This document shows, one piece after another, positions 7,976 to 59,512 of a stretch of DNA of 64,000 bases (its first letter is position 1; every line of letters begins with the position of its first letter). This stretch comes from Cinnamomum chago. Taxonomy: Eukaryota > Streptophyta > Magnoliopsida > Laurales > Lauraceae. Below the pieces are notes generated by a model. It had not been told where the DNA came from, made no database searches, and was given only the letters and a program-made list of their open reading frames with translations. The translations under genes were made by a program, and so were the position numbers. The DNA is taken from assembly GCA_038049695.1 (NCBI GenBank), contig CP142454.1:13248501-13312500 (forward strand). Direction: 5' to 3'.

Positions 7976-9198
7976 AAGGAAACAGTGGCTTTTCTGCCCC
8001 TTTTAGTTTTTTCTTTTTTCCATTCTGTATTCTATTTTCTTCAATGAATCGTCATGAAAATAAATAAATAGATAAATAAAAGATTGAAAAAGGGGTAGAA
8101 ATCCCTCCATCTAAGTCATCATTTCCTTTTTTTTTTCTTTTTTTTTTTATGTTATACCATCACCACTTCTTACAATTACCCCTATGCAACACACCCCTCC
8201 CCTCTTCTCCCCTCTCCTCCCTCCTCCTCCCCTCCCATCTCCTCCCTCCTGAAAAAACTCAATTTCTATTTGGGGTTCTGCAAATTGAGAGCAATCACAG
8301 CATAATGGTCGATATCGACCATTTGGATTCTGCAAATAGAAAGCAACCACCACAGAATGATCGATATCGACCATTCTAAAAGACAAAAAAAAAAAAAAGG
8401 CACATCTTGAGGGACTTATCCATATATACGATGTTTTTGGGACCTCAAGAGTAGTATGGGGTCCTATAGGGTCTTATATGGTAAATTCCTCTATATAATA
8501 TGTATCTATATCTAATTTGATGCCGTTTACATCTATGGAGATGCATACAATATACTTTTTGGTAATAATTGCATGAATAGTACGAGTGAGTCCTTTGATT
8601 TAAAATGAACCATAGCTTGGACTGGCTCGCTGGCCTTAAATAGTTGGGCTAAGGGCTTCCATATGTCTTATTGAGAGAGCTTGGACCTGGGCTCTACAGT
8701 CCGTCAGATCCAAACTTGGACTTGGGTTCAATCATTATCGGATCTGGACTCGGGCCCAGATATGTTGTTCGGGCCTTCGGGGGCAGCCCTACCCTACAGC
8801 ATCTGATAACAATAACCTGCAAGTAGGTGGAGAGTAAGAAGGTAAAAGTATACTCAGCTAGGGTTGGAATCTGGGCCGGGCCATGCCCGATTTCGCATAT
8901 TACTGTCTGCATGAAGAGTTCAATTCGGTTTGAGCTGTTCGGGTCTGGGCTTTATCTTGAGCCTGAATTTCGAAGCTCAGTTCTGCCCCCTCAGGCTCAT
9001 CAGAACTCTTGAAACATTAGATATTGCCAAAGAACATAGGCAAGTCAGTCCTGAAGGTATATTAGCAAAGGGATTTATGACTCTTAACACATCAATCCAA
9101 GGAATAAGAAACACAATCTAGCATAGTGAATTCCAACTCCAGCCGGCCAACATCCCAACAACTTGTCCCATGAAACACAAAGCTAAATAATCACATTG
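7976..9198. other. Upstream flank of type-a germin-like gene (duplicated)
   Basis: Collinear with 45245-46466 in front of the 46558 gene, with small indels. It contains a C/T-rich tract (8180-8250) and paired GGTCGATATCGACC-like palindromes (8305-8375). This is probably the promoter-distal region; no gene. Confidence 0.6.
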
Positions 9199-9208
9199 TA
9201 TATAAATA
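9199..9208 (+). promoter_or_regulatory. TATA box of germin-like gene 1
   Basis: TATATAAATA lies 91 bp upstream of the ATG at 9290. It is followed by a CA-rich leader (CATACAAGAACCAACACAAAC) shared by all five copies. The spacing suits a transcription start near 9230. Confidence 0.75.
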
Positions 9209-9289
9209 CATGCCCATGCAAATACTTTCCATACAAGAACCAACACAAACATCTCTTCTTCCTACAACCACACACTATACTCATCAACC

Positions 9290-9922
9290 ATGGCCTCAAA
9301 CACTCTCCAACATGCCCTCTTCTTGCTCCTAGCTGCACTGGCCACCTCCTACATCGCCCATGCAGGTGACCCAGATATCTTAACAGATTTCATCCTCCCT
9401 CAAAACTTCAACGGCCCCGTCGACGGCACCTTCTTCACCTTCACCGGCATGAGGGGAATACTCGACGCGACCACGCCTACCTTCAACGTCACAAAAGCAA
9501 GCATGGCTGAACTTCCCGCCCTCAACGGGCAAAGCGTCTCGTACGCCATCCTCCGTTACCCCGCCGGTTCAGTCAACCCTCCACACACCCATCCCCGCTC
9601 GGCCGAGCTCCTCTTCCTCATCGATGGTGAGTTGGAAGTCGGTTTCGTCGACACAACTAACAAGCTCTACACTCAGACACTTCAAATTGGTGATTTGTTT
9701 GTGTTCCCAAAGGGACTTGTGCATTATCAGTATAATAATAATGCTAATTACACTGCCACCGCGATCTCTGCCTTTGGTAGTGCAAACGCTGGTATCGTGT
9801 CCGTCCCCGGCAGCGTCTTCACCACCGGAATTGATGATGGCATCCTTGCAAAATCTTTCAAGACTGATGTTGCCACTATTCAGAAGATCAAGGCTGGTCT
9901 TGCACCAAAGCCCTGTGTTTGA
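9290..9922 (+). CDS. Germin-like protein, GLP9-3 type (copy 1, type a)
   Basis: Secreted cupin of the germin-like family, 210 residues, intronless. Residues 1-25 form a signal peptide (hydrophobic LFLLLAALATSYIA, cut before GDPDI), so the product should reach the cell wall. Cupin box 1 is HTHPRSAE with metal ligands His99, His101 and Glu106. Box 2 is GDLFVFPKGLVH with His145. Asn66 (NVT) and Asn153 (NYT) are glycosylation sequons. Most germins have an N-terminal disulfide pair; this protein lacks it and has only Cys209, which fits the GLP9-3 subfamily starting GDPDILTDF. Start chosen because ATG follows the TATA box and leader and begins the signal peptide. Known family members are Mn-binding oligomers with oxalate oxidase, superoxide dismutase or no known activity; the activity here cannot be told. 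Same protein as the 46558 copy except residues 93 and 210. Confidence 0.93.
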   Translation: MASNTLQHALFLLLAALATSYIAHAGDPDILTDFILPQNFNGPVDGTFFTFTGMRGILDATTPTFNVTKASMAELPALNGQSVSYAILRYPAGSVNPPHTHPRSAELLFLIDGELEVGFVDTTNKLYTQTLQIGDLFVFPKGLVHYQYNNNANYTATAISAFGSANAGIVSVPGSVFTTGIDDGILAKSFKTDVATIQKIKAGLAPKPCV

Positions 9923-11440
9923 TTTGTGCTTTTATCATTTGAGTTCGTAGTTAGTTGATTTCATTTCTTGAAGGGAGACGTAGTTCCCAATTGTAATGTT
10001 TGATGTGAGGATTGAGTACCATGGTCCATTGATGCTATGCATGTTTTTTTTTTTTTCAGTCAAGTCTTATATGATTGAATAATGTAATATTTATTCTTCT
10101 ATTTGTGTGTTTCTTCCTTGTCAAAAGGGCTTAAATCTTAATTACTCTTCATTTAACCAGCATGATAAAGTAGGGTCTTAGCCACTCAGTGGACTGTGAA
10201 AAGCTATATATAACGATTTTATATTGAAGCTAGCGTGTGTGTTTATAAACCCTATCAAAGTTTTGAAAGGCTAAAAGTATGCTTAGATGGGTCTAATTAA
10301 GTGGGTCATGAAAGAGGAACTTGGCTGGAGGAATAGCTAGCAACCTCCGTGCTGGTTTTTTTTTTTTTTACGGATGTTGCCTTTAGAGTAGCAGTTGAGA
10401 AAGCTATATATTTTCGGCTTCTTTTCATATTTGAATGGATCTATCATTAGTGCAGATACTTACCATAGATAAAATGTCTTTCTTCAAAAGAAGCTAAAGT
10501 AAGGGCGAACCTCGCCTTCCATTAAGTTAGCAAATATATATATTTTCGAATGTGAAGAAAGTGATGCAAGACAAGCCTTATCTTCTCAACAGTTCCGACA
10601 TATTCTTGAACATGGCTCAAAATATCACGTAGCGGCTACATTATTGATTGTAGCGGTCGAAACTATTACGTTATTTTAAAAATTGCGGCGCTATAATTTA
10701 AAACCTAATAAGGTTAAACAGTTTTAATTTTAAATATTAATTTTTTTTATTTTTTCATATCAATATAATTTTTTTAAGTTGTCTCTACTCTTACATAGTT
10801 TGAAATCACTAAAAGATACAAGATTAACCCTTATGCAATATTCACATTTTTTTTACCACTTAAAATTAAAATCCACATTGCTACATTACTATGTATCGCC
10901 CTCTGCGTAGCATTTTAGCCACTTATTAATACGCCTGCCGCAACTGCTATTTTGTTCATTGGTCTTAAAAGACTTATAGCCAAAATGGCCTTGTCAATTA
11001 TGGTGGTAAACACACTGCCTGTTCATACTGGTTCAAGGTCGATTAAAACCCTTCACAAAAGAAGAAAAAAGAAAACAAAAATATATTGATTCAAGTACAG
11101 CTCATTTACCGGTTTAAATGGTTTTGAGCAGTTCTATATTTATTGGACTGAACCATCCAACTTCCAAGGAACATATTCAGGTAACTAACCAACCTAAAAA
11201 CTGGTTTAGAGAAGGAAACCTCGTCTGAACCATTGTTTTCAATAGACATCATGCATGGATTATCAAACATCAAAGATCTTTCTGATCCGAAAATCATGAG
11301 CCTTCTATTGGCCGGAACTATTGCTGAAAGTAAATAAGAAAGGTAGAGAACTCCCACTACATGCGTTCCTTTCGGACAGTGCTTATTCACACGGGGAGTC
11401 GCTTGTAGATCAGTAGATCTTACTATTGTGGAGTGAATGG
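9923..11440. other. 3' UTR and duplicated intergenic segment
   Basis: Begins with the 3' UTR of copy 1 (AATAATGTAATATTTATTC is a plausible poly-A signal region near 10077). It is collinear with 60244-61820 downstream of copy 4 and partly with 47191-48120 downstream of copy 3. No gene seen; 11106-11480 on the minus strand is open but not protein-like. Confidence 0.6.
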
Positions 11441-13854: not shown

Positions 13855-14134
13855 GCTTGATTTTTCCTTGTCACATTTGTGGTGAACCATGGAGTTCTTA
13901 GTTGTTGATTTCATGTCCTGAAGGGAGTGGTAGCTCCCAGTTGTTATGTTCAATATTGTCCGGATTGACTACCGTTTATGTACTGATGCATGTTTTTAAG
14001 TTAATCTGTCTTAAAAGAATTTCCTGGGGCCAGTCCTATAAATCCATTATAAGTAGGAAATCCAATATAAGTAGGGCCCACTCTAAAACACAAGCAGCTT
14101 AAAATCCTTAAACCCCACCATGTATAGTACTTTA

Positions 14135-14175
14135 GGGCCCGTTTGGAAATTAACTAATACAGTGTAGTTAAGTAA
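14135..14175 (+). repeat. Left terminal inverted repeat of the 13.2-kb Harbinger
   Basis: First 11 bases GGGCCCGTTTG are identical to the right end. The next 30 match at about 20 positions, including TATAG/CAGTG..GTTAAGTA-like words. TTA precedes it at 14132-14134. Confidence 0.8.
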
Positions 14176-16186
14176 ACCGAGGTACCATATGGTAAAAGAA
14201 GGTTATTTCTGGGAGCTTCCTGTGCCGTACATCCCTTGACTTCATACGTTTGGAATACCATGTAATTGGTGCACTACAGCCTAAAAAGGTACCCAGAAGC
14301 TTCCTACCCAAACAGCAGGATGTACGGGAGCGGTTTGGTACAAAAAGAATGAAACCCACCCGCACATGACAGATCCAAATAAAAAGGAAAATCTAAGTGG
14401 GCCATCACTTCTTTCTTTATAAAGTTCGGTTGACATGGATAATGACAATCTGCAACTATGTGGACCCAAACCCAACTTAGATTAAAAAACCAAAAAGTCA
14501 TTCTACATAAAAGGGTCCAAACGACGATAACTTCGATTGCATGTAGTCATCCCTTTTCTCTTTACACTGTAACCCTTGTTGGCGCCAAAGTTTCTTCTCC
14601 TTGGAGGGAGAGAGAGGGCACTTCTCCGGCGAGGTGAACAGGATGTAAGTGGGCGCTACACTGTGACAGTTTTTACCATATCTCTCCGACAGATCGTAAA
14701 GGCCCAGAAATTGTAGACGCAGCGATCCAACCTGTCCTACACTCATTATCATCGCACGCAGCGTCTACCGACGGCGACGGTTTCCTCTCCGAAGGTACGT
14801 TTTATCGCATTCACCTCTTGCTTCGGATTTAATTGGAGACCTATTTATGGTAAAAGGATATACCTATGCTACTATCGTCAAGAAGATTGTGTGAAAAAAT
14901 GGGGCTACTCTGATCTTTATCAGCCCATATCCAACGATCTTGATGCCACCGTAGAAAACTTCTGACCAATTTCTGGTATTTGAGTTTTGTTGATACAAGA
15001 TTCATATTTTGACCTCTTTTTTTTTCCCCTGGCCCTTATAATGATTTTATTATTTCATATAAAGTTCATTTTATTTCATATTAAATTATTCTGAATCTTT
15101 ATTGGGATTGTGGTATGAAAATGAAATGCCATTGAAATGGTTCATCACGAAGAACTATAACTCCAGAACTGAATTTGTACATTTTTTTTTTGTAAGTTCA
15201 TTTCATATGTATTTCGGTTTTTATAGTCTTCCTCGTTAGATGGATTGTTTGTATTTAAAAAACTTGCAACCAGGGTTTTTCAACCTGTGGGTGTCATGAT
15301 AAATGGATTCTTCTCCAAGGGTAGTGCAATCCGAAATGGGATTCTGTTCTTGCATGTTACCATCATTGTACAATATGTTGAGCTTGTTTGGGTACGAAAA
15401 GAGCAATAGGATCTTTCCTGTTATTTGCCATATCCAAGTATCTTTACTTCTCACCATCTGATTCACAGTTTCAGTATAAATGTGAAAATGAATAATGTCT
15501 AAGATTTCTTAATCGTATTCTTTTTATCGAATGGTCAATCTTATAGTTTTACCAACTCCCACAAGCGGATCAAAATACTAGGAGTTACTGTATATCGGGA
15601 GGTGTCTACTATAATTGTCTTGGATCTACTGTGGAGTTCCAATCATTCAAATCAAAATTCCTCTAAGTCCCATAGTGGGCAAACAGCTCAACAGAAGCAT
15701 CTGCATTGCATCCTCTAAAAGATAGGCCATAATGCCAGACAAACTTCAAGTGATTGTCTAACTCAACAGCCTGGAATAGAAACCATGAATGGAAAACACA
15801 CGGTACACCTGCACTGGAAACAGAACCAATTTAGCTGCCAAATAATATTCTCTAAACTGACAAATCCATGTAATACATATCTCAGGAAGCAAGAATCTCT
15901 CTCTTGCCTCATGACAGATTGGTTTTTTCTTCTCACTTTTCTTAAAACAGCTGGAAGCATCCACCCACTAATCCCACATTAACATATCTATCTATGTCCC
16001 TATGTAGGTTTTAATATAACAAATAAATGTGTTACAGGTAAACTAACAGAACAATAAATAAATAGGGGCAGTAAATCAGTGCGATTTCCATGTAACACCA
16101 ACAGAGCAAACTTGCCCTTCAGACATACACTGTAGGAAGTTAGTCTCAACCATGGATAAACAGAGCAACAACACCCACAACACCCA
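14176..16186. other. Left arm of the Harbinger, no coding gene seen
   Basis: Contains a GC-richer segment (14740-14800) ending in GAAG|GTACGT, which could be a non-coding first exon of the downstream protease gene (speculative). The rest is AT-rich with no conserved frame. Confidence 0.4.
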
Positions 16187-16836
16187 TCAAACCTTGTCAA
16201 ACACAATGATGGTGGGTGGATACACAAGTATTGTTGCTGTTTTACCGGTCATGACCCCAGTCCCTTCCCCTTGAAAAAATCCATTTGGGTTCATTGCTGC
16301 TGCTCTAGGCAGCCCCTGCACCCTCGAGATATTCCCCATATCTCCCACTGTAATATACCTCAACTGAGCCATCTGAGGAGCCATATGATGACTCATTTGA
16401 AGACCCATGTGACCACCAACCATTGGATGCATCATAGCGATTTGGGGCTCGTTCCCAGGGCCAGCCAAATCGATGTCGTGAAAGCCAAATCCCATGTTCA
16501 TGGTGTGACCCCACATCATGGGAATTGGGTGCACCACCCACACCACCTTGAATGCCTGAATATAGTGGTGACCATTGTTGACTTCACCATTGGCATTGGG
16601 GGCATTCTTGTTGTTACCATCACCAAATCCACAAGCTGTTTTGAGATTTTTTTGGTCCAGGTGTTTTTCGCCCAACTCATGTGTTGATGACCCCCCCTAC
16701 TGTTTTTGTTGATCTCCACCATTGTTTCCACACCCTTCTCTCTACTATTGCCATTCTTACCATCATTGTTCATTCCCACACCCTTGTTATGTAAATGCAC
16801 ATCAGCAGTTACTATTCTTGGCATTCCCACCAACAA
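16187..16836 (-). pseudogene. Fragment resembling a heavy-metal-associated isoprenylated plant protein (HIPP)
   Basis: The minus-strand frame 16675-16187 gives a Met/His/Gly-rich peptide with PMVGGHMGLQMSHHMAPQM, then VGDMGNISRVQGLPRAAAM, then NPNGFFQG. This closely recalls the low-complexity C-terminal half of HIPP32-36-type proteins (..QMGNIPAVQGLPA..MN..GYFQG). The Asn/Lys/Gly-rich part lies in another frame upstream (16836-16670), so at least one frameshift separates them. The heavy-metal-associated domain and the C-terminal CaaX prenylation box are both absent. It is most likely a host-gene piece captured by the transposon. Family assignment rests on composition plus the short VQGLP block and is moderate. 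Confidence 0.45.
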
Positions 16837-17481
16837 TATTACCTACTAGTCTAAAATTGATTGGAGATTGAAGACAGATAACCTATATTTGCAGATCAGT
16901 CTGCAAACCAGCTGCTTCCCATATCCAGGTTATTTCATTGTCAGAATTGCAGGTTATGAAAGAATGGAAAGATGTTATCGCTACTTTCTGTGGTAATATG
17001 GTAGAAAGCTGCTGAAACGTAAAACAAGGAGAGCACCACAGTTCAGTTTTGCTATGCAAGACTGTGACCTTAGCCTATATTTATGAGTATGGAGTACTTA
17101 ACAGAAAATGGAGTGTAGGATTTTCTTTAATTGCTGTAAATGGCAGTGCGACATTATTATTTTGTGAGATTTACATGACACGCTCTTGTGAATCCCTATC
17201 TCTCTATCACTAGATGACACGTGACTGATGAACATCTCTTTATATGGCTAAATTCAGAACTATGAACAAGTATTTTGATGTCATGTGATTTAGAATTCAA
17301 TTTTATTCGTTCTTCACATTGTTATCAGGGATACTTTCGCTCTATAATATTTTCATTCATTTGCAAAACAAGTTGAGCAGGTGTATTATCTAATACTGTT
17401 CTTTGTAATGATGGTCCAGGTCTTCGGATATAATACAGAAAGACTGGCAAAGTGAGGTGCAATATAATATTGCGATCAGAT
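16837..17481. other. Putative promoter/5' region of the mobile-domain protease gene
   Basis: No coding frame of note. TTATATGGCT at 17240 lies about 240 bp before the ATG at 17482 and could serve as TATA element, without further support. Confidence 0.3.
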
Positions 17482-20400
17482 ATGGACCCATTTACAGCTC
17501 TGGGATCAAATGACACCTTGTTATATGACGAGGCAAACCATATTTCCTCAAAGTTGCTGCAAGGGGAGGTATTGTACCACACTAACTTTGCATACATGAT
17601 TGAGACATTCAATTTTTAATTGATACATGGTTGGAAATTAACAATCCCCAATTCGGTCTACATGCAGGACATACAGCAGGTACGTCTAATCACATTGGAG
17701 CCAAAGGGTGATTTGTGGCAGATAACACCAAAGGTCAACGAGTATGTGCGGCGGACGGGACTACAACATCTCGCCAAACTAAAAAAAGGAAAGATAGACA
17801 TGGCGTTGATCAATGCCCTAATAGAACGTTGGAGGCCGGAAACCAACACTTTTCATTTGGGTGGAGGTGAGATGACAATTACGCTAGAGGACATGTCATA
17901 TCTATATGGATTACCAGTAGATGGCAAAGCCGTGACCGGCCCTGTTTGGTCGACACGATCAAAACTTGAGGAAACAGTACTAAATTTGCTCGGAGTAAAG
18001 GTTGATACGTCTGCGTATTTGAGGGGTGGGCAATTGAGTTTGCCTTGGATACAAAAGAAATTCAGCAATATGCCATCAAGACCCACTGCTATAGAGGAGA
18101 TCAGATATGCAAGGGCGTACTTGTTTTGTTTGGTAGCGTCGCAGCTATCGACAAATAACGCCGGGGCACGTGGGCACGGTTATTTGTTGGAAATTTTCGC
18201 AGACTTTGAACGATATGCGTGGGCTCTTGCGTGCCTAGCCTGTGTTTACCGTAGCTTGACTCGGGCTACGCAAATAAAGGACCGTCTATGTACCATCACT
18301 GGGCCCCTTCATCTGCTGCAGGTAATGGAATTAATTTATAACATCAATATGAATTTAAATGGTATGGCTCATTCATGACCTTCTGATTCTACATCCCTAC
18401 ATATACAGATATGGGCTTACTCTCGTACAGCGATCGGACGCCCTATCAGGGTAGAGTTGGCTAGAGTCCGTGTTGATTTTCCTCTGTTCAAGATGTGGCA
18501 AACTGCCTTGTCCACACACAAATGCTCCAGTACAATCCAAGAGACGCGGAATCTACTTGACAAGGCTGATGGACAGGAAGATGTAATGAACTTTCAACCA
18601 GATACTATTTGTTTGAAATAACAAATTATATTCTTCAATGGAAAATTGCACTAACATCTGGAATTTATCTTATCATGCAGTTTGAGTGGCAGCCTTACCG
18701 GCATTGGATCCTGCAGCTCAATTTGCTCGTTGACTCTCGGGACCAGCAGTTATTCCGCTGTACAACCCCATTGGTCTACTATTGGATTGTTGAGCGGCAC
18801 AATGTTGATAGGGTATACAAGCAGTTCGGACTGAGACAACCTGTGCCACCTCCATTCCATCGATGGGAGAGAATCAATGAGCGGGCATCCAAAGACACAG
18901 TTGACTATGGAGAGAAGTTCAAGAAATTTGTGGATGCATGGGAGGCCAGAGGAGACGTTGCCATGATCACAGGAGCTGACGATGGAGAGCAATGTCACGA
19001 CGAGTATTATCTCATTTGGTATCGTCAGGCGAGCGGTAGGTCTTGCGCCACAGATGAAGCTATACCACGAGCAAGAGTTGAAAATGCACTTGCCAAGGTA
19101 ATTAGTTACTGCATAGTTATATTTCGCTGGGCAATTTTTGATATAATGACTGTTTCTATTTCATTTCATGATTTAGGTCGATCTCTTCCTACAATTTGGA
19201 GCAGGATCCATCGCTCTCCTGAATCGGGAACAATCTGTCGACTTGTACGAGCAGTCCATGAGGGTCGAGCGTAAAATGCAAGAATTCAGAGAGGCGGTCA
19301 AGTCTTTCAAGGCCCTAGAGGAATTCAACCTAGCTTCTTTCATTAACGATGTTGACAACAGTGGAACTCCTACCGTACGTGTCATCTCTATGAACGACTG
19401 CACTAAACAACGATTCAGATTTTGTTCTGGATTGTCTGCACTGATCATATTGTTTCGAATGTCGCAGGGCAACAGCAGCAGTGATTGGTCCGTGGAGGAG
19501 GTTTTAAAAATTACATTCCCCACTAAGCAAAGGAAGGAAGAACCTTCAGATCGCACGGTCAGGCATCGTACTCCAGCAATCAGTACTACAACTTCGTCAT
19601 CTTCCAAGGTCAGCAAGGGCAAACGCAAATTGGGAGAGGAACGCGACACCGACGCACACATAGGAACGTCCAAATTGGAAGCGTCTGTTGAGCCGTTGGT
19701 AAGCCCCTATCCCCCTTCGTCGATGAAGGGGGCAGAACAGCCAAATCGGGAGTACCAACTGTCTAAGAATGAGCGCTCGTTGTTGGAGAAGTTTTGGAAG
19801 GAATACCAAAACGCGTATGATCATTCAACCTTCACATTTCCTTTTTATTTTTTTCCTTATATTTCACTGGATTCTAATAATACTCACAATCGAATTTGAG
19901 TGTGACTGATCTGTCCAGCCCCGACGGGATCCTTGAGTCGTGCAGCTACATCAGCGCACAGGATCTGTATTTGGTCCTACGGAGGCACTGGATCAGCACG
20001 ACGGTACGTACGCATATTTAGCGATATTTATATAGACATTTGATAGCTGCATTAACCTATTATATTCATTTTATCTGTCTTAACAAATTACAGATTATGG
20101 ACTACTGGCTCTCAATAAATAGTGGGTGTCTGCACGGAGTTCATCTATTCCCAAGCACCCTTGCGGTAAATTTTTTGTACTTTTCCATCTTGATTAACAC
20201 CACACAAGCTTGTAGGCCTGTGACTTGAGGGATTCTGTACGATTGATTTTTATATGGCAGATCATGCGGGATCGTGGATGGAGTAATGCATGCTCCGTTG
20301 CATTCAACTTCTGTCACTCTCAGTCACTTTTAGAGTTTGATGCCTTGCTCTTTTCCGTTTGGCATCAATCTCACTTCTACCTACTAGTGGCATACCCAAG

Positions 20401-20889
20401 ATTGAAGCGATGGGACTATTACAATACAATGGGATGGAGGAAGCGCCACTGGGTACAAGCACAGGCATTTGTAAGTATCCTGAAAACACGTTGCCTATGT
20501 TTGTAACCCCTTGTACATTTTTACCTCTTACAATTTGCAACTCCATCGCAGAAAGAGTATGTCTGCACTGAATTCGCATTAAGAGGATGGACGGGTACAA
20601 ATTGGGAACTACATAATGTTGCTAGTTGCCCACAGCAAGGCAACAGGTATTAATTTCATATAGAATCCACAGTGTTACTTAGTATCTGCGTACGTACACT
20701 TACTGCGATCGTGTTTAATGATTTCTTATAAACAGTGACGACTGTGGGGTGTTCGTCATGGCCATTGCTGATCACCTGGCAAGGCGTCGTGATCTCCGAT
20801 TTACACAAGCAGACATGTGGTATTTTCGCCAGAAAATAGTCATTGACATATATCATCGCCAGTTGGATAGGGCCGCTGCCCCACGATGA
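17482..20889 (+). CDS. Plant mobile domain (PMD) - Ulp1/C48 cysteine protease fusion
   Basis: Eleven exons: 17482-17568, 17668-18321, 18409-18582, 18681-19097, 19177-19374, 19468-19814, 19919-20003, 20094-20165, 20261-20470, 20552-20646, 20736-20889. All introns are GT-AG, all phases agree, and there is no stop before 20887, giving 830 residues. Residues about 30-400 are a plant mobile domain: EYVRRTGLQHLAKL, ALIERWRPETNTFHL and TLEDMSYLYGLPVDG are its signature blocks. About 445-640 is a helical then low-complexity linker with basic KGKRKLG. Residues about 655-825 are a Ulp1-like protease: His716 (SHFYLL), Asp730 (RWDYYN), Gln777 and Cys783 (PQQGNSDDCGVFV) form the expected His-Asp-Gln-Cys set. 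Ulp1 enzymes cleave SUMO or similar ubiquitin-like proteins. PMD proteins occur as host silencing factors (MAIL1/MAIN) and in transposons. Start chosen because the leader exon begins MDP, as in other PMD proteins. Substrate and role here are unknown. Confidence 0.85.
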
Positions 20890-21864
20890 AGGACCGAATA
20901 GGGTTGACCGTCTAGGCTATTAAACTCACTATTGGCTTGAAGTTGACACTGCCAAAGACAAACGGAGAATCAAAATGCAACCTATTCACACCAAGTGAAT
21001 AATCATCCAGAGGAGGTCAGGGGGGCGGTCTGTGAACAAGGAAACGCCAATTCGGCTGTTACACAATTGGATCTACTTTTATTTTTACCGTCACCCATCA
21101 AAAGATGATGTAGAAGTTGACAACTTAACTGCTGATGTTAGCGCAATTAACAGTATCAAACAACTATTCGTTGCAGTTTGTCCAAATTAAAAAGGATTGG
21201 GCCATGTCTATATGAAATCAAATGCCAGTATCCAATTTTGGGTGGTGTTTCATCTTTGGTTGCTCATAGATTATACTTGGAATTTTGCACAGGATGACTT
21301 GCTATGTGAATTTAACCAACATCCGTCACTATTGTTTAGATTGAAAACAAAAGCATCTACATTCAGTACTCAACTATTAATTAAAAAGGGGCATACATTT
21401 GGGACATACATATGGAAGCAATGTCTTAAGTTGGAAACGCACAGGTTTCCTATGATGAGTGAGGAATTAGTATCCGATTAGCCCGCACTACCTTGACATC
21501 GAAGTTAAATCCATCTTGTAGGCAACATCCTGACTAATAAGTTATTCCACCTTATACGTTAAAGCTGTCATCCAATACCCGAAAATTATATTCTATAGTA
21601 TCGTAAAACACACATATGGTGCCGTAAGATTGTCTCCAATCCCACTCATTTATCAGCTAACTAGCAACGGACGTTTGTATGAGTGAAAATATCATATTAA
21701 ACATGAGAACTGTCGAACAATTAGAAAAGCAAAAAATATTGTATTGCCAGCAACGTACGATGACGTGCGATGAATTTTCGCTACAGCATTGTCGGTAGAA
21801 ATAGTGTATTAGAACCTAAAACAAAGGACATGAATGTCCGACATCCAACGTTTGCTACATCTGA
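20890..21864. other. Spacer between convergent protease and GRF genes
   Basis: Presumed 3' UTRs of both. 21197-21481 is open on the + strand but shows no family resemblance or intron logic. Confidence 0.4.
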
Positions 21865-22349
21865 TCACAAATAAAATAGCCTAGCCAATCCTACACATAA
21901 AATGATGGAAATGAACAGGCACACATAAAACATTTTCTGCAAGTACAATTCCCAATCATGTAATTTCTTGTGAGTTTCTCGCTTCAGCTCATCGATCTGA
22001 TTTGATATATTATGCAGCTCACCGCGAATGTCTCCTTTGTGAGAAGACATTGAATTTGCATCGGAACTTTGGTCTGCTACCTTGTCTTTCCACATGAAGG
22101 CGTTGCAACCATTTCCATCCTGCAAAAAAAAATGTGAATGAACAACAGATGGGATTAGACGCCGGTTAATGCAATGGATCATGCGAATTGTCTGGGTCTG
22201 AATATATTAGAACTTACAATCCATCCTGGACAACCCCAAAACTTTCTATTTGGGTTAGTTTTTGTATGGGAGGTGAATAGCTTCATATCGCCATTCCCGC
22301 ATCTACACTTGGGTGCAATTTCAGCAGTGGAGGAGATGGAACGTGACAT
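21865..22349 (-). CDS. GRF-type zinc-finger protein with C-terminal membrane segment
   Basis: Two exons, 22218-22349 and 21865-22119, joined in phase across a GTAAGT..TTGCAG intron, giving 128 residues. A GRF zinc finger occupies residues about 14-55: PKCRCG supplies the first two Cys (15, 17), FWGCPGW the third (40), and NGCNAFMW the fourth with the following aromatic pair. Then come an acidic/polar coiled-coil-like helix (IDELKRETHKKLHDWELYLQ) and a single hydrophobic span near the C-terminus (VCLFISIILCVGLARLFYL). GRF fingers bind single-stranded nucleic acid in topoisomerase III and APE2. Small plant GRF plus membrane-tail proteins are a common family of unknown function (At4g04775-like). 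The start at 22349 is preferred over an upstream ATG at 22379 because MSRSISS.. is the usual length of leader; this is uncertain. Confidence 0.75.
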
Positions 22350-23051
22350 GTTACAGAGATTGATGTATATAGAAATCAATTATCACAGAAAGAGGTAAAT
22401 GCACTTTGTACTGTCAATTAGTCTGTGGCGTGAACCATATGCTTGCTGCCCGTACAGTTATCCAAGTCGAACCAATGCAAATGTTTAAACTGTCGGTTCA
22501 AAACCAGCTCTGTCTCTAGTTTATTGATTCTGTGAATGCAGTAAGACAGAAAGGATAAAAAAACATTATCACCCTAGCATGGAAGTTTTTTATTTTTGTT
22601 TTAGACTAATAAGTTAGAAGGCATACTGGAGAGAGGGACTGTTGTGAACTCTGCCTGTTTGCAGCAAACCAGCTCTGGTAGTTTTAACTACTGAGATGAT
22701 GGCATCGGCTTCTCCAGATATCCTGCAAATATACAATTACAGTACAAACTATGTAGACATATTATACTGCAAAAGAGAAACAAAGAACGTTTTGCTGGAC
22801 ACACATAAATTGATTCATCAGCCTTAACTGCCCTGTCAAACGAAAGGTGTTTCAATGTAAACGACAGCCTTATAAATATAACATAGATGTTCTTGCAGTT
22901 TCCCCTCATGTGAGAGAGGAATAGTTGGATAATTCAAAGTTTAACCACATGTCAATATTAATAACAGACAGTTCATGCAGATTATGGACGCAAACTGCAA
23001 TATAACCAACACACACAATAACAGCCACATAGCCCATCTCCAGGAGACTGA
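22350..23051. other. Spacer between GRF and Myb-like genes
   Basis: AT-rich, no conserved frame. It may include the GRF promoter, read on the minus strand. Confidence 0.35.
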
Positions 23052-24024
23052 TCAGAGACCGGTCTCCTTGTGCATCCGGTCCAAACGACGAAAGATCCAT
23101 GCTGATTTATCCTTAGAATGGAGGAAGGCAGTCGAACTGTCGGCACTATTGTTCAGCCACTCATGTGCAATGTCTAGATCGGCCGGAGACAGTTCTGGGA
23201 TCTTATCCAATTCTGCCCCAACAATTTCTGACAGTCGTTCCGAAGGCTCTAGCATCTTTTTTGCAACCTCTTCAATCGCGGCACTAATTTTCCCAGATGC
23301 CTGTTGGAACCCTGTCATGAAATCCGCTAAAGAGGTACCCCTTTTTACTCTCTTCCTTGATCCGGATGAACCCTCGCCACCTTTGTTGCCCATAATCATC
23401 TCCTCGATACAGTCGTCTACCCCAATTTCAGCATTACCAGAAATCGCTTGGGTGTTGGTACGTGAAACAGAGTCGTTGGTATGGCCTGCATTTTGGGATG
23501 ATCGAGCAAACTGGCCATTGGCGACGTCGCGGCCAAATATGAGAGAGAGCCTGTCGTAATCAATTGTCTTAGACCGCCATGACTGCGCATCAGGGTGTCC
23601 CTGCAATGTCATAGTATGTTTTTTACTAAGATGTCATACACAATAAAACACTGGAATTGCAAATACACACAATACGGTGGAAACCTCGAACATCATACCA
23701 CTATCCAATCCCGCCAGACCTCGTCACTGGCGATGACGTGCTTCGTTGCATTGTCAAACCCGAACCCAGATGCATTCAGCAGCTCTGTACAAATGTTGTA
23801 TTGCTTCTTCAGGTACTTGCATCTATTCCGGATTGTCCCTTCAGAAAACTTCTTCCCTGCTGTGCTCGCAGCCGTCATTGTGTTTGCAACAGACAGGTAG
23901 GCCTCATCCTTGAATCCACGGTCTCCCTTCCTCCCCATTGTTACCTGTTCCAGCATTAGTTCCAATAATAGTTCGTCGAGCTCTGCGTTGAAGACATTGT
24001 ATTTGCGCGAAGGCTTCGGTGGAA
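23052..24024 (-). CDS. Harbinger-associated Myb/SANT-like DNA-binding protein (5' end unresolved)
   Basis: Two exons recognised: 23699-24024 and 23052-23600, joined in phase. The first opens after a TTCTTGTAG acceptor, so an upstream start exon is missing from this model. Exon 1 encodes a trihelix/Myb-like fold (LDELLLELMLEQV, GKKFSEGTIRNRCKYLKKQYN, DEVWRDWI). Exon 2 continues with GHPDAQSWRSKTIDYDRLSLIFG, a basic stretch SRKRVKR and a helical C-terminus. In PIF/Harbinger elements such a second protein binds the subterminal DNA and helps the transposase reach the nucleus. Its place just downstream of the transposase on the same strand fits. No stop or frameshift interrupts the two exons. Confidence 0.8.
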
Positions 24025-24268
24025 CTACAAGAATCAACATTATTATTGTAATACGTAATTACTTAAACACAATGGCATGGACATTAACTGTAAAAACGTG
24101 CATTACAAGCATTCATAAGCAGCAACGTCCTGAAGGTTACAACACATTGCAAATTGACTCAATGGACAGAGTTCGCAATATTAAGACTGATACAGAACAA
24201 CCGTTTAGTACATAAACAAAATCTGTGCATTTTATATTTCGATAACTGTACTATGGCATGTGACAGAT

Positions 24269-25558
24269 TCATCCATGTGTCCTATTCATCTGGTACTCTT
24301 CCCACAAATTGTTTGCGAAGTTATCACGGAAGGCATGCCACTCATCCCTTTCTCTTTGGCTGTATGGCCTGAAAACACCAGCCAGATCGACCTCGCTACA
24401 TCCCTCCTCATTTTGGACCGCATCTATAGTACTAGTTTCAACACAGACATCAATTCCATCGTTTTGCTCTAGGATGAAATTATGCAAAGTGCAGCAGGCA
24501 TGTACTATCGACACTTGGTGGACGAAGTCATACTGGGGGGCTGTCCTTAAGATGGCAAAGCGCCCCTTTAAAAGTCCGAATGCCCTTTCGATCACATTTC
24601 GAGCTTGCGAATGCCTTTTATTAAAAAGTTCTTTTGGATCTTGCGGTGTTCTTCCTCGGTGGTCCTTCAAATGATATCGGACTCCACGGTAGGGTGCGAG
24701 GAATCCCGGAGCATTGGCAAATCCGGCGTCCACGAGGTAGTAGCGGCCTATTCGAATAGAGATCGGAGAATGAGCGGTTACTTTCCATTTGATTGGGACG
24801 TTTATTGTTCAAGTGGGAGGAAAACAGAAGAGGGTAGGATGTATATACCTGGCGGCACGACCAGTGGATCGCCCCTTGTTAGAGCATTCTGTAGGACTCG
24901 TGCATCTGTTGCGGATCCCTCCCAGCCGGGGAGGACATACTGAAATTTTAAGTCAAACCCACAAGCCGCTAGGACGTTCTGTGTCAACGTTCCCTTCCTA
25001 TTTCGGTACGCTGATTGTGACTGCACTGGTAGGAAGGCGGGTATGTGGGTGCCATCGATCGCACCGACGCAATCCTGGTTGAAAATTGTAAATCAGTGTG
25101 AGACTATAACACAGAATATAACATGATCAATATTGCTCAGTTGACGAGTGATCTTAAAAAAAAGGTACCCATTTTACCTTGAAGTTGGAAGGTCCCGCTG
25201 TTGTAAGTATGTTGGATTGTTTGACGAAGTTAGGTGCTAGTGTTAGAATGGCATTGAGAACTCCGTGGAAGTGCCGGCTAACTGTTTCCCCTGATCGCAG
25301 AAACCTCGATGCGATTGTTCTGTTTTTAACCGCATGTGCCAAAATTTGCAAGCATGTTGCGACCTCTTCCTCAACGGTGACCTCGCGAGTGTCTTTCAGC
25401 AGCCCTCTCACTCTGAGCAGCTCGCAAAGGTAATCAAAGCTCTCCTTGTTCATTCTAAGCTGACTAATACACTCTTCGTCCCTCCCTTCTGTTAACTTCG
25501 AAAGGTAGTGGGCTCTTTCAACAGTTCTCTTGTTCCGGGACTCCGACTTATTTTGATA
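24269..25558 (-). CDS. PIF/Harbinger DDE transposase (ALP1-like nuclease)
   Basis: Exons 25178-25558, 24849-25074 and 24269-24747 join in phase with GT-AG introns to 361 residues from the first clear exon. The catalytic triad is visible: Asp in GAIDGTHIPA, Asp in GWEGSATDARVL and Glu in RNVIERAFGLLKGR. The N-terminal helical part reads MNKESFDYLCELLR..FLRSGETVSRHF, standard for the family (DDE_Tnp_4/HARBI1-like). The upstream boundary is uncertain. 25558 follows a TTTTCTAG acceptor, and a short first exon in 25560-25680 (Ala/Val-rich, poly-A-adjacent) is likely. If so, the gene is complete; ATG 25453 is an alternative internal start. It would cut and paste the element at TWA sites. It reads away from the nearby right end. 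Confidence 0.85.
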
Positions 25559-27322
25559 CTAGAAAAGCACTCCGGCTGCAGCCACGACCTGCACTTGCCA
25601 TGCAGCCAAGGCTGCCCAAAGAACTGCAAGAACAGCTTTCTTTTTTTTTTTTTTTGCTTCCCTCTTCTCTTTATTTGACTGTTTATAGAAGGATCTTCTA
25701 CCCTCCATCTGATTGTCGCAAGCTTGTAGTGGCAAATTCCAAGCGTGGTATTCAAAGGACTTGATACACAGAGAGGATAGATATAAAATGGATTTTTGAC
25801 CGTTTCACAAGATGTTTGCGCCAACATTCCAGAGACCAATATTAAAAATACAAGTTGTAAACAACAGCGCAGACGTTAATGGTAGTGATATCAGATCCTC
25901 ATTTCACTCATATAGCACAGAGAGATTCTTATTTAGATAATGTTGACACGTACGATATCGTACGCAATCAATCAAGTTGTAGAAACAGCATAGGAAACTT
26001 TCCAGCAAATTTGTGTTGTTTTACAATACAAGTGATCTCAGTTAACAAATAGATGGATCAAGCCAGTCGACTCTGTTGCATGTAAGTTTCAGTATAGTAC
26101 ACGTCTTAGGTGTGAAACCCAGCAAACGAACCGAAGGAAATTATCAACAAGTAGCTTTTAGACTGAAATTGATTGTTTTACAGTAAAAAGACGTTGGAAA
26201 TAGAGGAAAGAGTCTATACCTTGCTCGTCCACGGACATGTTCTGTATCGTATCGGAAGTCATCTTACTCGATCTCTATTTCTGCACCCGTTATTCATCAT
26301 CAACTGCCACTGCTTCTTTTTTATAGAGGGATTTTGTGAATGGGTACGGAATGAGCAATTGCTATAAGATCTCTGCTAGATATGTTGAGCTTCTTCTGGA
26401 TCTGTATGATGAATAGCCTGTCCTCTCACATCAATGCCTAAATCTAAAGTAATCCCTCTACCAAGATTTATCCTCCATCAGCTCTCGCACATTTACTCGT
26501 TCTGGAGACTCAAGGTTGCCTACGAACGCAGATCTATCACGGCTATATGTCAGGCATCACTGGTCTTTCATTGGGAAGAAGAGATGAACATCTGGATAGA
26601 TGTTGCTTAGAAGTTATAGTCCCTGACAACGTTGATGGATATGTAGGTCGTCCCCGTCAGTGGTAGACATGTACTCACATGAGCTTTCTTCTGGCAAACT
26701 TATGCACCAAACCCCGTTTGGTGGAGAGGAATGAAGGTGAAGTAATGGTGTCAACTGTGTGGATCATTTCTGTACCCACCTACTGTCATGTGGGCATGTC
26801 TTCTCAACCCTATGCAGAAGATCGAATGCAATCTGCAAATCCACCACCCTTGTTCAGAATCTGCACTGTCTTCAGTCGCCGCTACCACGAAGGGCTAGAA
26901 GAGGCTCTATGATGGCAAGTTGTAAGGTCTAGGATTTTCCATGGAAAGCGAGGGTATACAGCAGATGGGGGAAGTAACGTTTGGGAGGGTTGGATAGAGA
27001 AGTAGGTCTTGATAGTTATGAAGGTTTAATGCGTTTAAAGGAGAGATGTTCAGGCGCATTTGATTCGGCTCGCAGCAGATGGAGAGAATTGATAATGAAC
27101 AGGATGGAAACCCAGGGAAGCTTCCTATCGTCTTCCGATATGGGTCAAACCTTGGCCTGGGGTACAGTGCAGGGATGGGAGTAAAATATGGTGGAGATAC
27201 AAGTGTACTTGTACGGAAAGCAAACTAACTACAGCTGTAAAATTACCCATTTCTAGATGGGTTTGTTCCGGGCTGCACCCAAACATGGTTTCGTGAAAAT
27301 TCAAACCGTTGGACTTGCATTG
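25559..27322. other. Right arm of the Harbinger
   Basis: Upstream region of the transposase gene. No second gene recognised; 26430-26900 has short open frames on the + strand without family resemblance. A poly-T run lies at 25641-25656. Confidence 0.4.
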
Positions 27323-27363
27323 TACTTCACTTGACTATACATGTAACTTTATCAAACGGGCCC
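27323..27363 (-). repeat. Right terminal inverted repeat of the 13.2-kb Harbinger
   Basis: Ends CAAACGGGCCC, followed by TTA at 27364-27366. Its reverse complement matches the left end at about 31 of 41 bases. Confidence 0.8.
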
Positions 27364-27366
27364 TTA

Positions 27367-28533
27367 GGGGAATTTAAGAGATAATTATTAAAGTTTTAGA
27401 TTTATGTCGGTTGGTTAGGGTGTAGTAAAACTTACAAGGGATCTTCACCGTACAGATGCTTTAAGACCTAACTTTTGCCTCATAAATTTTAGTATTTTAA
27501 GTATGCTGAGGGAACCATACACTGTAATGGATGGTGCGAAAATGACAATCTCTGCCTATGCTCCTAGCATGGAAAATAGGATTTATTGTGATATGCAACG
27601 GTGAGGTTGGAAAATAACATTGGCAGCTGATATAAATAATGGTCAATATCTTTGGTGATGAAAGATAACCTAGTAAGGTCTGCTATTATAGCCCATATGG
27701 GAGTTGGTGGGGTAGTATAAGACGTGGGTTTGATCCCACTTTTTGGCTGGTGTGCATTTGTATAAGTTAAATATTGGGTGCCACCCAAGAGATTATCACC
27801 TCTGGGTGAAAGACTACACGGATTCCCACAATATCAAAAAAGTAAAAAAAAAAAGGTTTTACTATTGTAGACACCAGTGCTCTTTATTTAGCCTCCACGT
27901 TGACTTGGTTACGGTGGCTTGTTTCTTGGGGCACCATGAATCCATGATATACAATTACTCTGGGGTATGTGCAAAAATCTGTAATAGAGCGATGTATAAT
28001 TGGACATTAAGCATGTTTGGGTAATCCACAATGAAGTAAATTATCAAATCAGGAGAGATTAAATGCAGAGGGTGTCAAATCAAAATGTGGTGGCTTTTGT
28101 CATTTTGTGGTTTTAGAATGAATCTTTTTGACTTTTTTTTTATTAAAAAATAGTTACGGGCTTTTTGCCATTTAGTGAGATGGGAGATAAAATAAAGAAG
28201 TGATTTTTGAAATTTAATATTTTTTTATATGACCCCTCAACTTTTTATATCTTTTAAATTGAGCATTTTTGGTTCAATTCACTTTACAAGTGAATTACCT
28301 AAATAATCAATAAGAGAAAGCATATATAGAATTCCACGTACCAATACTATGATTATGCGCCATGAACATAGCGCATGCAGTGTGCATTTAACTAATTCGA
28401 AATGAAAATTACTACGATATTACATGAATTTGCATGTCAGCCCTAGTAAGTGTTACAAATTAAATCCCTTAAACTATAAGAGATGTCAGGCCTACGTAAA
28501 TGTTAGAAATTAAAGCCCCCAACTATTTATATA
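27367..28533. other. AT-rich spacer, nothing recognised
   Basis: No gene or clear repeat seen. A short A-run follows GTAAAAAAAAAAAGG at 27842. Confidence 0.4.
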
Positions 28534-28847
28534 TACCCCACATCGCCTAAATAATAGGCTGGACATATCTTAATATACCTGTATGGGCCTTCTACCTATA
28601 AGCTTAAGCTTTTGAGTTGGTATATGGTTTATGACATGGTATCAGAGCGGATTTCGATCCCGGTGTTCTTGTGTAGCCCACGTGACAGGCCCGTCCATGA
28701 AATCTGTTGGGCCTGCACGTGAGGGGGAGTGTTGGGAAGTCCCACATCCCACATCGCCTAAATAATAGGCTTGACATATCTTAATACACCTGTATGGGCC
28801 TTCCACCTATAAACTTAAGCTTTTGGGTTGGTATATGGTTTATTACA
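28534..28847 (+). mobile_element. TRIM (terminal-repeat retrotransposon in miniature)
   Basis: Two direct repeats of about 103 and 118 bp (about 28534-28636 and 28730-28847) share CACATCGCCTAAATAATAGG and GGTATATGGTTTAT..ACA. The first is followed directly by TGGTATCAGAGC (28637-28648), the initiator-Met tRNA primer-binding site. A purine tract GTGAGGGGGAG precedes the second repeat, which begins TGTTGGGAAGTCCCACAT. The short interior is non-coding. The outer left end is less clear, so the element looks slightly damaged. Confidence 0.75.
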
Positions 28848-31263
28848 GAAGCAAAGTGGATTCGATTTTCAATTTCACTGTCAATTTCAAAAAAAAATTG
28901 AGTGTCTAATTATAATTTTTGACATCCTTCTAATGCCACCCCCTACCAACTAATAGGCCATTAATCCTACTAAGTAATGGCCCATTTAATATCCAAATTC
29001 AACTTAGAACATTAGCCCATTAATCCGTAATAGCCCATTTAATTTCAAATGCATGAGGCAAGACGTTTTTATTCCTAATTTCCTCTTCCATTCCTCTTAC
29101 CCAACGCAGAACGCGGGCAAGAAGCGTTTCTCTTCTCATCATAGATCTCCTTCGTTCGTTTTAATTGTTCCAATTTACATTTGACCTATCCAAATCCCTT
29201 CTCTCTTTAATTCCAAACGTACTTTCCTCTACTTTCTCTCATTTACACAAAAAAAAAAAAAAAAATCGTCTCACATTCACTTGGAGTTTAATGGCTTGCA
29301 TTGATTTGGAGTTCCTTTGTCTTTCTCATCTCTCTTCCTCTGTGCTCTGAGCTCACTTCCATCTCCAAGGGCATCTCGATCCGTATCTTTGACGCCTGCC
29401 TCATCTCCTCTGCCTTTGTCTTAGGAAAAGAAAGCACCAAGATCTCTGTGATCAATCTCAAAAATTCCGAGTTCAATCTCCTTTGCCTTTGTCATAGGAA
29501 GAGAAAGCACGCAAAAGAGGAGAAAAGAAATTCAAATTTAGAGTTCAATCTTGGCAGATGTTGTAGAAATTTAGGTAAAACCTCTCTCCTTTATACCTAA
29601 TTATTTATATTTCGGGCTGTGAGTTTTGGCAATTCATCTGAATTGTAGGCACTGCATTTTTTTGGTTTTGCTGAGTGTTTGAATCAGATTTTTTGCAATG
29701 CATTCTTTGCTTTTGCAATAATTTCACTATTGTGGAAGGATCAAATGAGAGTAGTAATTAGGTGAACTTGAGATGGAAGAGATCATCTGAATATGAAGTC
29801 ATTCCTGTAGTTCCATCTCCTTCCTTTCTTTCTTTTCTTTTTTTTCTTTTTTTTTTTTGCCAAATCATTATAAATATGTGAGAGAGTAGCCATAGGGAGT
29901 TTTTTAATGTACTATTTTTAATTCCTGATATTTATATTTCACATGCTTTGCTTGAGATTTGCCCGTATTGGTTTCAATATCCTTTTCACTTTCAAATGAT
30001 TTAAGATTTCTTCCTTATTGGGTATAGTTTTGTTTATTTATATACATGATCTATATGCTAAGCAAAAGTATCACCTCATTTGTCTGAGTTTGATGTGGAA
30101 ACATATGATGGTCTTCCAACTTCTTTGGTTGCTTTGCTTATTGCATAAGATATAGATTAAAACTTCTTGAATATTTATTAATATTTCCTTATGATTGTGG
30201 GTTGCACCATTGTAATTTTGAGGTTATTCTTTCTTCTTAACTTTTTTTTCTTTTTTATTATTATTATTTTTTCTTTATTTTTTTATTTTACACATTAGGA
30301 TTGATTGAGAGCGGGGCAAAGGATATATACGGCAAATATGTAGTGAAGGATATAACTATATAAGGCGTCCGCATCCTTGAGAAGAAACTCCGCTTATACA
30401 TTATAGAAGACTTGTAACCAACTATGGGCCTTGGCCTAATTCAAGCCCTCTATTTCCCTCTCCAAAACACTTACCCTTTCATGTCTCAAATGGACCGGAG
30501 TGATTTATGTAATATATTAAAATTATCTTATACAGTAAAATAATTGATACAGAGTATGGCTATTTTAAAGTAATTTTCTTTATTATTTGTATTTATTAAT
30601 TTTATTAGTTTACTTTCTTAACAATGATGCCATTTAATGGAGAATGGTAATGAAAATTATAATATATTATGGAATACAATTTTGATCATCACATCTAACT
30701 TTGTTCTCTTCTAATTACATTCTAATTATGTTTTCATTTTTTTTTTTTTTTATGCCATGGTTATCTCTGAGGTCTTTGACCCAACAAGACTGATCTCCTT
30801 TTAATTACTTTTATGATTTGATTTCTTAGCTTCTTTCTTAATCTTCTTTTAATTCCTTTGCATAATTCTTTTTCTTAACGGGGAACTTCACTTGATGGAC
30901 AATAGTAACAGTACTGTCATTTAATTGAGAATATTTTTTTTTTCTTAATTCTCTTTTAACAGCCATTTGTTAACAACAATAAATACCATTTTGAAACTAA
31001 TAATGACTTGCATGTTTTTCATTATGGCTTTGGCTAAACACAGAATATGAAAGAGACTTACAAGTGAATTTGAATTAGATAGACTCCAACTAATTTTAAC
31101 CTAATGGCAAAGGATCAGGTAGAGTTCTTGTTTAGGCTTTGCCTAAATCCCTTTCCTGACCCACTTATGACAGGTTCGTGGCCGGTGATTTGTATGGGTC
31201 AAGTTGGGTTTCCAATTGGATGATCTTTTTTTCATTTTGAATTTGAAAAATAAAATACACTTG
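28848..31263. other. AT-rich segment, no gene recognised
   Basis: 29160-29600 is richer in C/T and has short open frames on both strands without recognisable domains. Poly-T and poly-A runs occur at 29840-29860 and 30240-30290. Confidence 0.4.
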
Positions 31264-40366: not shown

Positions 40367-40483
40367 TAGCTCTGGAGGACTTTTTCCTTTTTGATTTCTT
40401 TTTCTTTTTCGGAGACTGAGCTTGAAAGGCCAGATCTGCAGAGGAGGGAGACCAGAGGAAAGGGGGAGGAGCAGGTTTGGAGA

Positions 40484-41540: not shown

Positions 41541-41881
41541 CGGATGAGGGAGGGCCAGAGGGGTTTGAGAAAGAAAGGAGGCATAGGATCTAGGGTTTGA
41601 GTTAGAAGAAGAAGAAAAGTGGGGGGGGGGGTTTGGTTGGTGTAGGTTCGACTGGAGGAGGACTGGTGCAGGATGGCTGACAGTTTATGGATTTGGCTAG
41701 AGGAAAGAGAGGGAGGGGGGGGGAAACGAGGATTGCTGATCAACTTGAAGGATGGCCAGTATCTCTGCAATAGGAACCGAGTAATCTGGTGAAGCTAAGA
41801 GAGGAGAGGGATCGGAGAAGGGGGGAGGATTGGGATCCGGATCGGACGCCAAGTTTTTGCGTACTGATCTCTCAGCTAACC

Positions 41882-46466: not shown

Positions 46467-46476
46467 TATATAAATA
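46467..46476 (+). promoter_or_regulatory. TATA box of germin-like copy 3
   Basis: TATATAAATA, 91 bp before the ATG at 46558, same context as copy 1. Confidence 0.75.
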
Positions 46477-46557
46477 CATGCCCATGCAAATACTTTCCAT
46501 ACAAGAACCAACACAAACATCTCTTCTTCCTACAACCACACACTATACTCATCAACC

Positions 46558-52698: not shown

Positions 52699-53151
52699 TA
52701 AGTTTTATTTGAATATAGTGGGATTTTTGGAGTAGTATGGAATCACTTTTGGATGTAAGAACTTAAGACTCATCGCTTTTGAATACATTGAATATAAGAA
52801 CTTATGACTCGTCACTTTTGAATATATATACATAAAGTAAAAAACTTTTGGAACAGTATCTTTTTTGAGGAGTATATAATCAATGTAAGAACCCCACCAA
52901 TTGTTTTGATGTTGGATGGGATGAATATATGAACTTGACTGAACTGAATGAATGAATGAACTTGTGATTTTATTATTTTTAGTGTGGGATGGAATGAATG
53001 TAGGAACTTACGTTTCTTTTTTTTATTATGGGTGGAATTAATCTAGGACCTTACTCTAGGAACTCATGAATTTCTTTTGTTGGATGGAATAAAATTATGA
53101 AATTTGGTTCTTCTTTTTTTTCTTTATTGTGGGATGGAATCAATGCAGGAA

Positions 53152-58835: not shown

Positions 58836-58850
58836 CCAAACAGGGCCTAA

Positions 58851-59502: not shown

Positions 59503-59512
59503 TATATAAATG
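59503..59512 (+). promoter_or_regulatory. TATA box of germin-like copy 4
   Basis: TATATAAATG in type-b context. Confidence 0.7.

Follow-up and report, generated by a model that had tools for sequence, protein, structure and literature searches.

In a stretch of 64,000 nucleotides of the Cinnamomum chago genome (GenBank assembly GCA_038049695.1, contig CP142454.1, positions 13,248,501 to 13,312,500; hereafter, the window, with positions numbered from its first letter), a pair of inverted ends encloses four genes: a DDE transposase gene, a Myb/SANT-like gene, a gene in which a plant mobile domain (PMD) is fused to an Ulp1-type protease, and a gene for a small, GRF zinc-finger-like protein. By its ends, its target-site duplication (TSD), its transposase and its Myb partner, the enclosed DNA is a PIF/Harbinger element, and it is probably an oversized one with complete accessory genes: without the target duplication, it measures 13,229 bp. 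The PMD-Ulp1 gene reads inward from the left end; the GRF, Myb and transposase genes are on the minus strand. The four gene models, all obtained by conceptual splicing and with domains assigned from Pfam, are listed in Table 1 together with the ends and three further features of the left arm.

Table 1. Coordinates of the PIF/Harbinger element and its features within the 64-kb window. TIR, terminal inverted repeat; ORF, open reading frame; UTR, untranslated region.
Feature	Positions	Strand	Remarks
Left TSD, TTA	14132..14134	.	read from the sequence
Left TIR	14135..14176	+	first 11 bases perfect; gapped and weak further in
TATA-like box (TATAAA), possible PMD-Ulp1 promoter near the left end	14418..14423	+	pattern only, weak
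Possible 5'-UTR intron of PMD-Ulp1, about 2.6 kb, speculative	14795..17419	+	GT at 14795, AG at 17418-17419; pattern match
Met/Gly/Asn-rich, decayed and frameshifted coding fragment, left arm	16187..16850	-	reading frames; ORFs tested have no family match
PMD-Ulp1 fusion gene, 11 exons	17482..20889	+	830 aa; 10 GT-AG introns, no internal stop
GRF zinc-finger-like gene, 2 exons	21865..22349	-	128 aa; CxC...C...C, hydrophobic C-terminal tail
Myb/SANT-like gene (second PIF protein), 2 exons	23052..24040	-	296 aa from the first in-frame ATG
PIF-type DDE transposase gene, 3 exons	24269..25708	-	D, D and E residues kept; in-frame TAG
Right TIR	27326..27363	-	alignment with the left end
Right TSD, TTA	27364..27366	.	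read from the sequence

The transposase matches DDE_Tnp_4 (PF13359, 3.8e-26), and the three residues that we take to be catalytic, D134, D209 and E256 (numbered from YQNK), are present. Its partner matches Myb_DNA-bind_3 (PF12776, 6.3e-18). The introns of the transposase gene are 103 and 101 nt long, that of the Myb gene 98 nt. The ATG-proximal frame of the transposase is broken by an in-frame TAG at 25561-25559, upstream of the DDE domain. The sequence would allow a splice acceptor at this TAG, but a nonsense mutation appears to be the simpler reading, because the frame upstream is open from the ATG and in phase with the rest. With its transposase frame interrupted in this way, the present copy is probably not autonomous and would need help in trans.

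The PMD-Ulp1 gene model is open throughout, in keeping with the intact gene claimed in an earlier note on this DNA, made from the letters alone. All of its 10 introns have canonical GT-AG borders and are 79-104 nt long, and the frame is open across 830 codons. The PMD part matches PF10536 end to end (3.9e-67, profile positions 1-347 of 347), and the protease part matches the C48 peptidases (PF02902, 2.7e-9) and aligns with SENP1 and SENP2 over nearly the whole catalytic domain, SENP1 being the best phmmer match (9.2e-13). The active-site residues His716, Gln777 (oxyanion) and Cys783 are kept. The fusion depends on the donor at 19815: unspliced, the PMD frame would stop at 19899. The PMD-Ulp1 protein has no DUF1985 or DUF287 match in Pfam; PMD and C48 are its only matches apart from a Glypican row without significance (E 0.29).

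The GRF-like gene follows the Myb gene on its strand at a distance of 0.7 kb and has one intron of 98 nt. Its product gives a sub-threshold match to the GRF zinc ribbon (PF06839, 5.8e-5, 23.6 bits); by eye, it has four Cys as putative zinc ligands and a hydrophobic C-terminus, in keeping with the “GRF plus membrane-tail gene” described before. The best match to a solved structure, ZCCHC4 (6uca), is weak (E 0.058).

The left end of the element reads TTA-GGGCCCGTTTG (14132-14145, plus strand; GGGCCCGTTTG from 14135) and the right end CAAACGGGCCC-TTA (27353-27366), where CAAACGGGCCC is the reverse complement of GGGCCCGTTTG and ends at 27363; the inverted match is perfect in 11/11 bp. Directly outside both ends stands TTA, a 3-bp TWA (W = T or A) duplication, as PIF/Harbinger requires, while the 11-bp motif itself is presumably the superfamily motif of PIF/Harbinger (short TIRs starting GGG/GGC...GTTTG). 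Further in, the ends are less alike: ungapped, they agree at 13/20 of the first positions and at 18/41 overall, and with gaps at 32 positions in 44 columns (hand count). Within 30 kb of each other, the window contains two TWA-flanked, perfect 11-bp inverted pairs, as against 0.825 per dinucleotide shuffle (40 shuffles of the 64 kb); when at least 7 of the 11 bases have to be G or C, only the 14135/27363 pair is left, as against 0.025 per shuffle.

Most of what the earlier note had read at this locus is thus confirmed: the interval of 14132-27366, which counts in the target duplication, is exact to the base, TTA does stand on both outer sides, and the pair of ends is single in that no other GC-rich, TWA-flanked 11-bp pair occurs in the 64 kb. 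The DDE transposase and the Myb/SANT gene lie between these ends, and the classification as PIF/Harbinger holds. Its figure of about 31/41 matching end positions is reached only when gaps are allowed. Similarly, a Harbinger with two extra genes between its ends is what we find, but the earlier wording, an enlarged “lineage” that “recruited” them, would need further copies.

We consider it rather probable that the four genes moved together as a unit. We prefer this to a composite origin because there is no recognisable inner end and, in the proteins and ORFs scanned, no domain of a foreign element, because the introns are alike and because of the codon usage. In 14,100-27,400, TWA adjoins the outer side of a site within three mismatches of GGGCCCGTTTG at the two ends of the element and nowhere else; with no other candidate for a PIF end inside, the Harbinger core has no recognisable nearer left end. 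No MULE (Mutator-like element; MuDR), CACTA, hAT or long terminal repeat (LTR) element domain, and besides the PIF one no other transposase or retroelement domain, was detected in the 16 proteins and ORFs of the element that were scanned. These were scanned as sets of 6 and 10 and include 12 of the 36 ORFs of at least 60 aa in the non-coding blocks; the sole row in the scan of 10 was insignificant (E 0.077). All 14 introns of the four gene models, the possible 5'-UTR intron left out, fall between 79 and 104 nt. The codon usage of PMD-Ulp1 correlates at 0.81 with that of the transposase, at 0.72 with GRF, at 0.68 with Myb, at 0.67 with a long interspersed nuclear element (LINE) of the window and at 0.58 with germin. 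Searches of 13,900-27,600 against Rfam and of the whole window for tRNAs gave no match.

A number of observations weigh against movement as one unit or against a role for the cargo. The third position of the Ulp1 triad is Asn733 rather than Asp (codon within 20261-20470); papain-type enzymes have Asn at the corresponding position, so the activity of the Ulp1 part cannot be judged from its sequence. The GRF score is 2.3 bits below the curated Pfam cut-off of 25.9. Codon usage carries little weight, since PMD-Ulp1 correlates almost equally with the Myb gene and with the LINE. The element is known as a single copy, without a second one in the 64-kb window. No match was obtained for the PMD part and the transposase among genome contigs, for the transposase, GRF, Ulp1 and PMD parts among viral contigs or for the left 8 kb among plasmids, but plants are outside the intended content of these collections, so that this result is no sign of absence. 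Past base 11, the similarity of the ends is marginal, being equalled by 3.7% of 20,000 shuffles and by 1.1% of 20,000 random 39-mers of the window. The 11-bp motif with a TWA duplication is, we assume, generic for PIF/Tourist ends, and the two ends could thus stem from different PIF elements. Moreover, grapevine PIF elements have longer TIRs, of 20-35 bp, and are about half the size of the present 13.2 kb (PMC2528002; published work is represented here and below by excerpts of the papers cited). Two further points of this kind, the excess of weak nested pairs and the lack of motif arrays, are taken up below.

The interval could instead be a composite that never moved whole, in which either the ends come from different PIF elements or PMD-Ulp1, with or without the GRF gene, belongs to a second element, e.g., a MULE without TIRs or an old insertion inside the Harbinger. 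We hold this to be rather unlikely, for all that the 11 bp that the ends surely share are superfamily-generic and that both cargo domains have a record elsewhere. In keeping with the earlier note, which names Mutator-like and CACTA elements for Ulp1 and Mutator and Ty3 contexts for PMDs, it is in print that Ulp1 is carried by MULEs, with and without TIRs, and by CACTA elements (PMC2528002, PMC13317346), and that PMD occurs in Ty3/Gypsy elements and MULEs (PMC5418596). Since 40% of the grapevine MULEs reported are without TIRs (PMC2528002), a nested one could be invisible. A scan for nested elements (TIRs with the first five bases perfect and at least 14/20 identical, and duplications of 3 or 8-11 bp) yielded eight weak TIR pairs around PMD-Ulp1 and one around GRF; the control, 12 mild shuffles (300-base blocks, single-base order) of the PMD-Ulp1 region only, yielded 0-5 pairs (mean 2.3). 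The excess is in number and not in quality, as the top nested pair has 15/20 identical positions and a 3-bp TSD, while shuffled pairs go up to 17/20. One pair, 14065-21213 (14/20), has an 8-bp duplication with seven of eight bases equal, but it begins to the left of the Harbinger end. The scan, which is insensitive to short or absent TIRs and whose cut the Harbinger's own pair (13/20 ungapped) would have failed, revealed no convincing nested TIR element around PMD-Ulp1 or GRF and, by eye, no pair with superfamily-typical ends; neither did it reveal a TIR pair with a 9-bp duplication around the cargo, though elements without TIRs would escape it. The absence of foreign element domains from the scanned proteins and ORFs also speaks against a composite, as do the matching outer TTA duplications, although, with TTA and TAA as the usual targets, any two PIF ends have roughly an even chance of showing the same one.

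Movement as one unit does not by itself give the cargo a role. The Harbinger might have transduplicated PMD-Ulp1 and GRF genes of the host passively, as useless cargo that is still open because the capture is recent, which we judge to be rather unlikely. The decayed fragment in the same left arm is relevant here: it seems to resemble the C-termini of heavy-metal-associated isoprenylated plant proteins (HIPP), and it is possibly a captured host exon. PMD-Ulp1 is open, while this presumed host fragment is frameshifted, which we count in favour of the preferred reading. The cargo genes retain their introns, as expected of capture at the DNA level; published examples of transduplication by PIF elements exist (PMC2528002), and host genes in which PMD is fused to a protease domain have been mentioned (PMC7156037). 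On the other hand, capture mostly yields fragments and, if random, would rarely pick up two entire genes from unrelated families; besides, PMD and Ulp1 are both known as cargo of mobile elements elsewhere. Lastly, a chance pair of inverted ends, with a decayed Harbinger lying near host PMD-Ulp1 and GRF genes, is very improbable: TWA-flanked 11-bp pairs of any composition are readily expected in 64 kb of shuffled sequence, but GC-rich ones are rare there, and this pair frames PIF transposase and Myb genes.

Starting from the preferred reading, a single unit of four genes, we can only tentatively propose that the cargo in addition serves the element. More doubtful still is the specific form of this proposal, a Harbinger lineage that permanently carries PMD-Ulp1 and a tail-anchored GRF protein as accessory genes for counter-defence at the level of SUMO. 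In the preferred reading itself, one PIF/Harbinger element with a length of 13,229 bp would have integrated at TTA, downstream of a germin-like gene. For its cut-and-paste movement, the transposase and the Myb-like protein would attach to the ends and mobilise everything between them, the transposase being supplied in trans for a copy with a broken frame. As for the cargo, the PMD may bring the fusion protein to the MAIN/MAIL-type chromatin and silencing machinery of the host (PMC5418596, PMC7156037), where the Ulp1 part might act on proteins of silencing or repair and free them of SUMO or a related tag. The GRF protein may bind nucleic acid and be tethered to a membrane through its tail; the two products could jointly ease expression or repair of the element. 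Such an anti-silencing role is conjectural, but a role for Harbinger cargo in chromatin is not far-fetched, since HDP1 and HDP2, host proteins derived from Harbinger pairs, prevent DNA hypermethylation (PMC8616336). VANC proteins, which cause loss of methylation in their own VANDAL family, act through dense motif arrays (PMC5735166). In the roughly 8.2 kb of non-coding DNA of the present element, masked with approximate exon limits, no dense array of this type stood out: thousands of words were compared, and the best 8-mer has five copies where 0.16 are expected.

The closest precedent is found in grapevine, where the PIF families measure 5-7.2 kb, with TIRs of 20-35 bp, mostly TAA or TTA duplications and two ORFs (PMC2528002). 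Copies of Pifvine-3 often have up to 3.5 kb of extra 5' sequence, mostly similar to host gene sequence, and transduplicated gene sequence is common to several copies (PMC2528002). The earlier statement that a plant Harbinger normally has no genes besides the transposase and Myb-like ones is therefore correct as the usual state, but not for these grapevine elements with their captured gene pieces. Pifvine elements share with ours the TTA/TAA duplication, the transposase and ORF1, and, in Pifvine-3, the extra sequence of genic origin, which makes their transduplication a precedent for additional genes inside a Harbinger. They differ in that the excerpts of that study, in which Ulp1 occurs in MULE and CACTA elements, mention neither a complete PMD-Ulp1 gene nor a complete GRF gene (PMC2528002).

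Kaonashi/KIU and other ULP-bearing MULEs are likewise DNA transposons with an added Ulp1-type protease and possible counter-silencing (PMC13317346), and a review ties the Ulp1-bearing KIU genes to the VANC system (PMC13317346). Kaonashi and VANDAL, however, are of Mutator type, whereas no MuDR transposase was present among the 16 scanned proteins and ORFs of our element, and VANC has DUF1985/DUF287 rather than PMD (PMC13317346, PMC5735166). For PMD, class A is reported from Ty3/Gypsy elements and class C from MULEs of grasses and Amborella (PMC5418596); there, the domain sits in retrotransposons or is fused to a MULE transposase, whereas the present PMD is joined to Ulp1 and lies in a Harbinger. 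Genic PMDs fused to protease, kinase or phosphatase domains have also been noted (PMC7156037), and the protease fusions among them resemble ours in combining both parts in one protein, but are described as host genes (PMC7156037). Pack-TYPE elements, for which Harbinger derivatives are mentioned in A. thaliana (PMC8616336) and Harbinger-PIF elements annotated in a survey of maize and rice (PMC8903248), also have coding DNA between transposon ends; they are non-autonomous and defined by the lack of a transposase match, in contrast to the present element with its transposase and Myb genes (PMC8903248, PMC8616336). Oomycete Cryptons with a C48 peptidase are a further combination of a DNA transposon with an Ulp1-type protease, but they are tyrosine-recombinase elements, are not from plants and lack PMD (PMC3212892).

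We found no report of Ulp1 or PMD in a Harbinger in the open-licence literature, sampled in excerpts and exclusive of subscription papers and repeat databases, and no text in open-licence PMC articles that pairs “plant mobile domain” with “Ulp1”. Additional complete PMD-Ulp1 and GRF genes in a Harbinger are thus probably new, if further copies confirm them. The function of the Ulp1 domain in plant transposons is called unknown in a review (PMC13317346). If our reading is true, Harbinger would be the third superfamily of plant DNA transposons, after MULE and CACTA, with an acquired Ulp1, and Harbingers would be able to carry complete multi-exon genes and not only fragments. The PMD, which has the transposon-silencing proteins MAIN and MAIL1 as its relatives in the host, would then be an address in the host silencing machinery, and SUMO removal could be argued to be a general route of transposon escape, testable with one defined protein.

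The window around the element resembles plant nuclear DNA, with tandem germin-like genes, a LINE-like frame and a second PIF-like transposase. Five germin-like copies were recognised by eye (at 9289, 13227, 46557, 59606 and 63599); over 300 nt, they are 94-98% like the reference copy, and they lie in larger duplicated blocks. The element adjoins the 3' side of one of them. We tried the germin paralogues as a source of an empty site: the left flank matches 8616-10020, 45738-47290, 58848-60321 and 62357-64000 (cut by the window end), with a further match of 438 nt at 48659-49091, but similarity ends at 13973 or earlier, some 160 bp short of the element, and for the right flank, the paralogues offer no match; they are therefore uninformative on an empty site.

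The second PIF/Harbinger-like pair (51527-54473, plus strand) consists of a Myb/SANT-like frame, recognised by eye, followed by a DDE_Tnp_4 transposase in pieces (1.7e-9), 64 of whose 141 aligned positions are identical to the transposase of the element. No Myb match was found in the scanned part of its Myb/SANT-like frame (52165-52698). Between 47.3 and 59.4 kb, the sole other ORF of at least 150 aa is an antisense overlap, so that no further gene is evident. As a two-gene control, this pair (about 51.5-54.5 kb) had to be discarded: no acceptable ends were present among the TWA-flanked, perfect 7-10-bp pairs, and it could not be delimited. The LINE-like element (by eye; 36686-41684, minus strand) has an open frame of 1265 residues and two upstream frames. 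Finally, the right flank of the element contains a direct repeat of about 122 nt (28537-28658 and 28748-28866), the copies of which are 89% identical and 89 nt apart.

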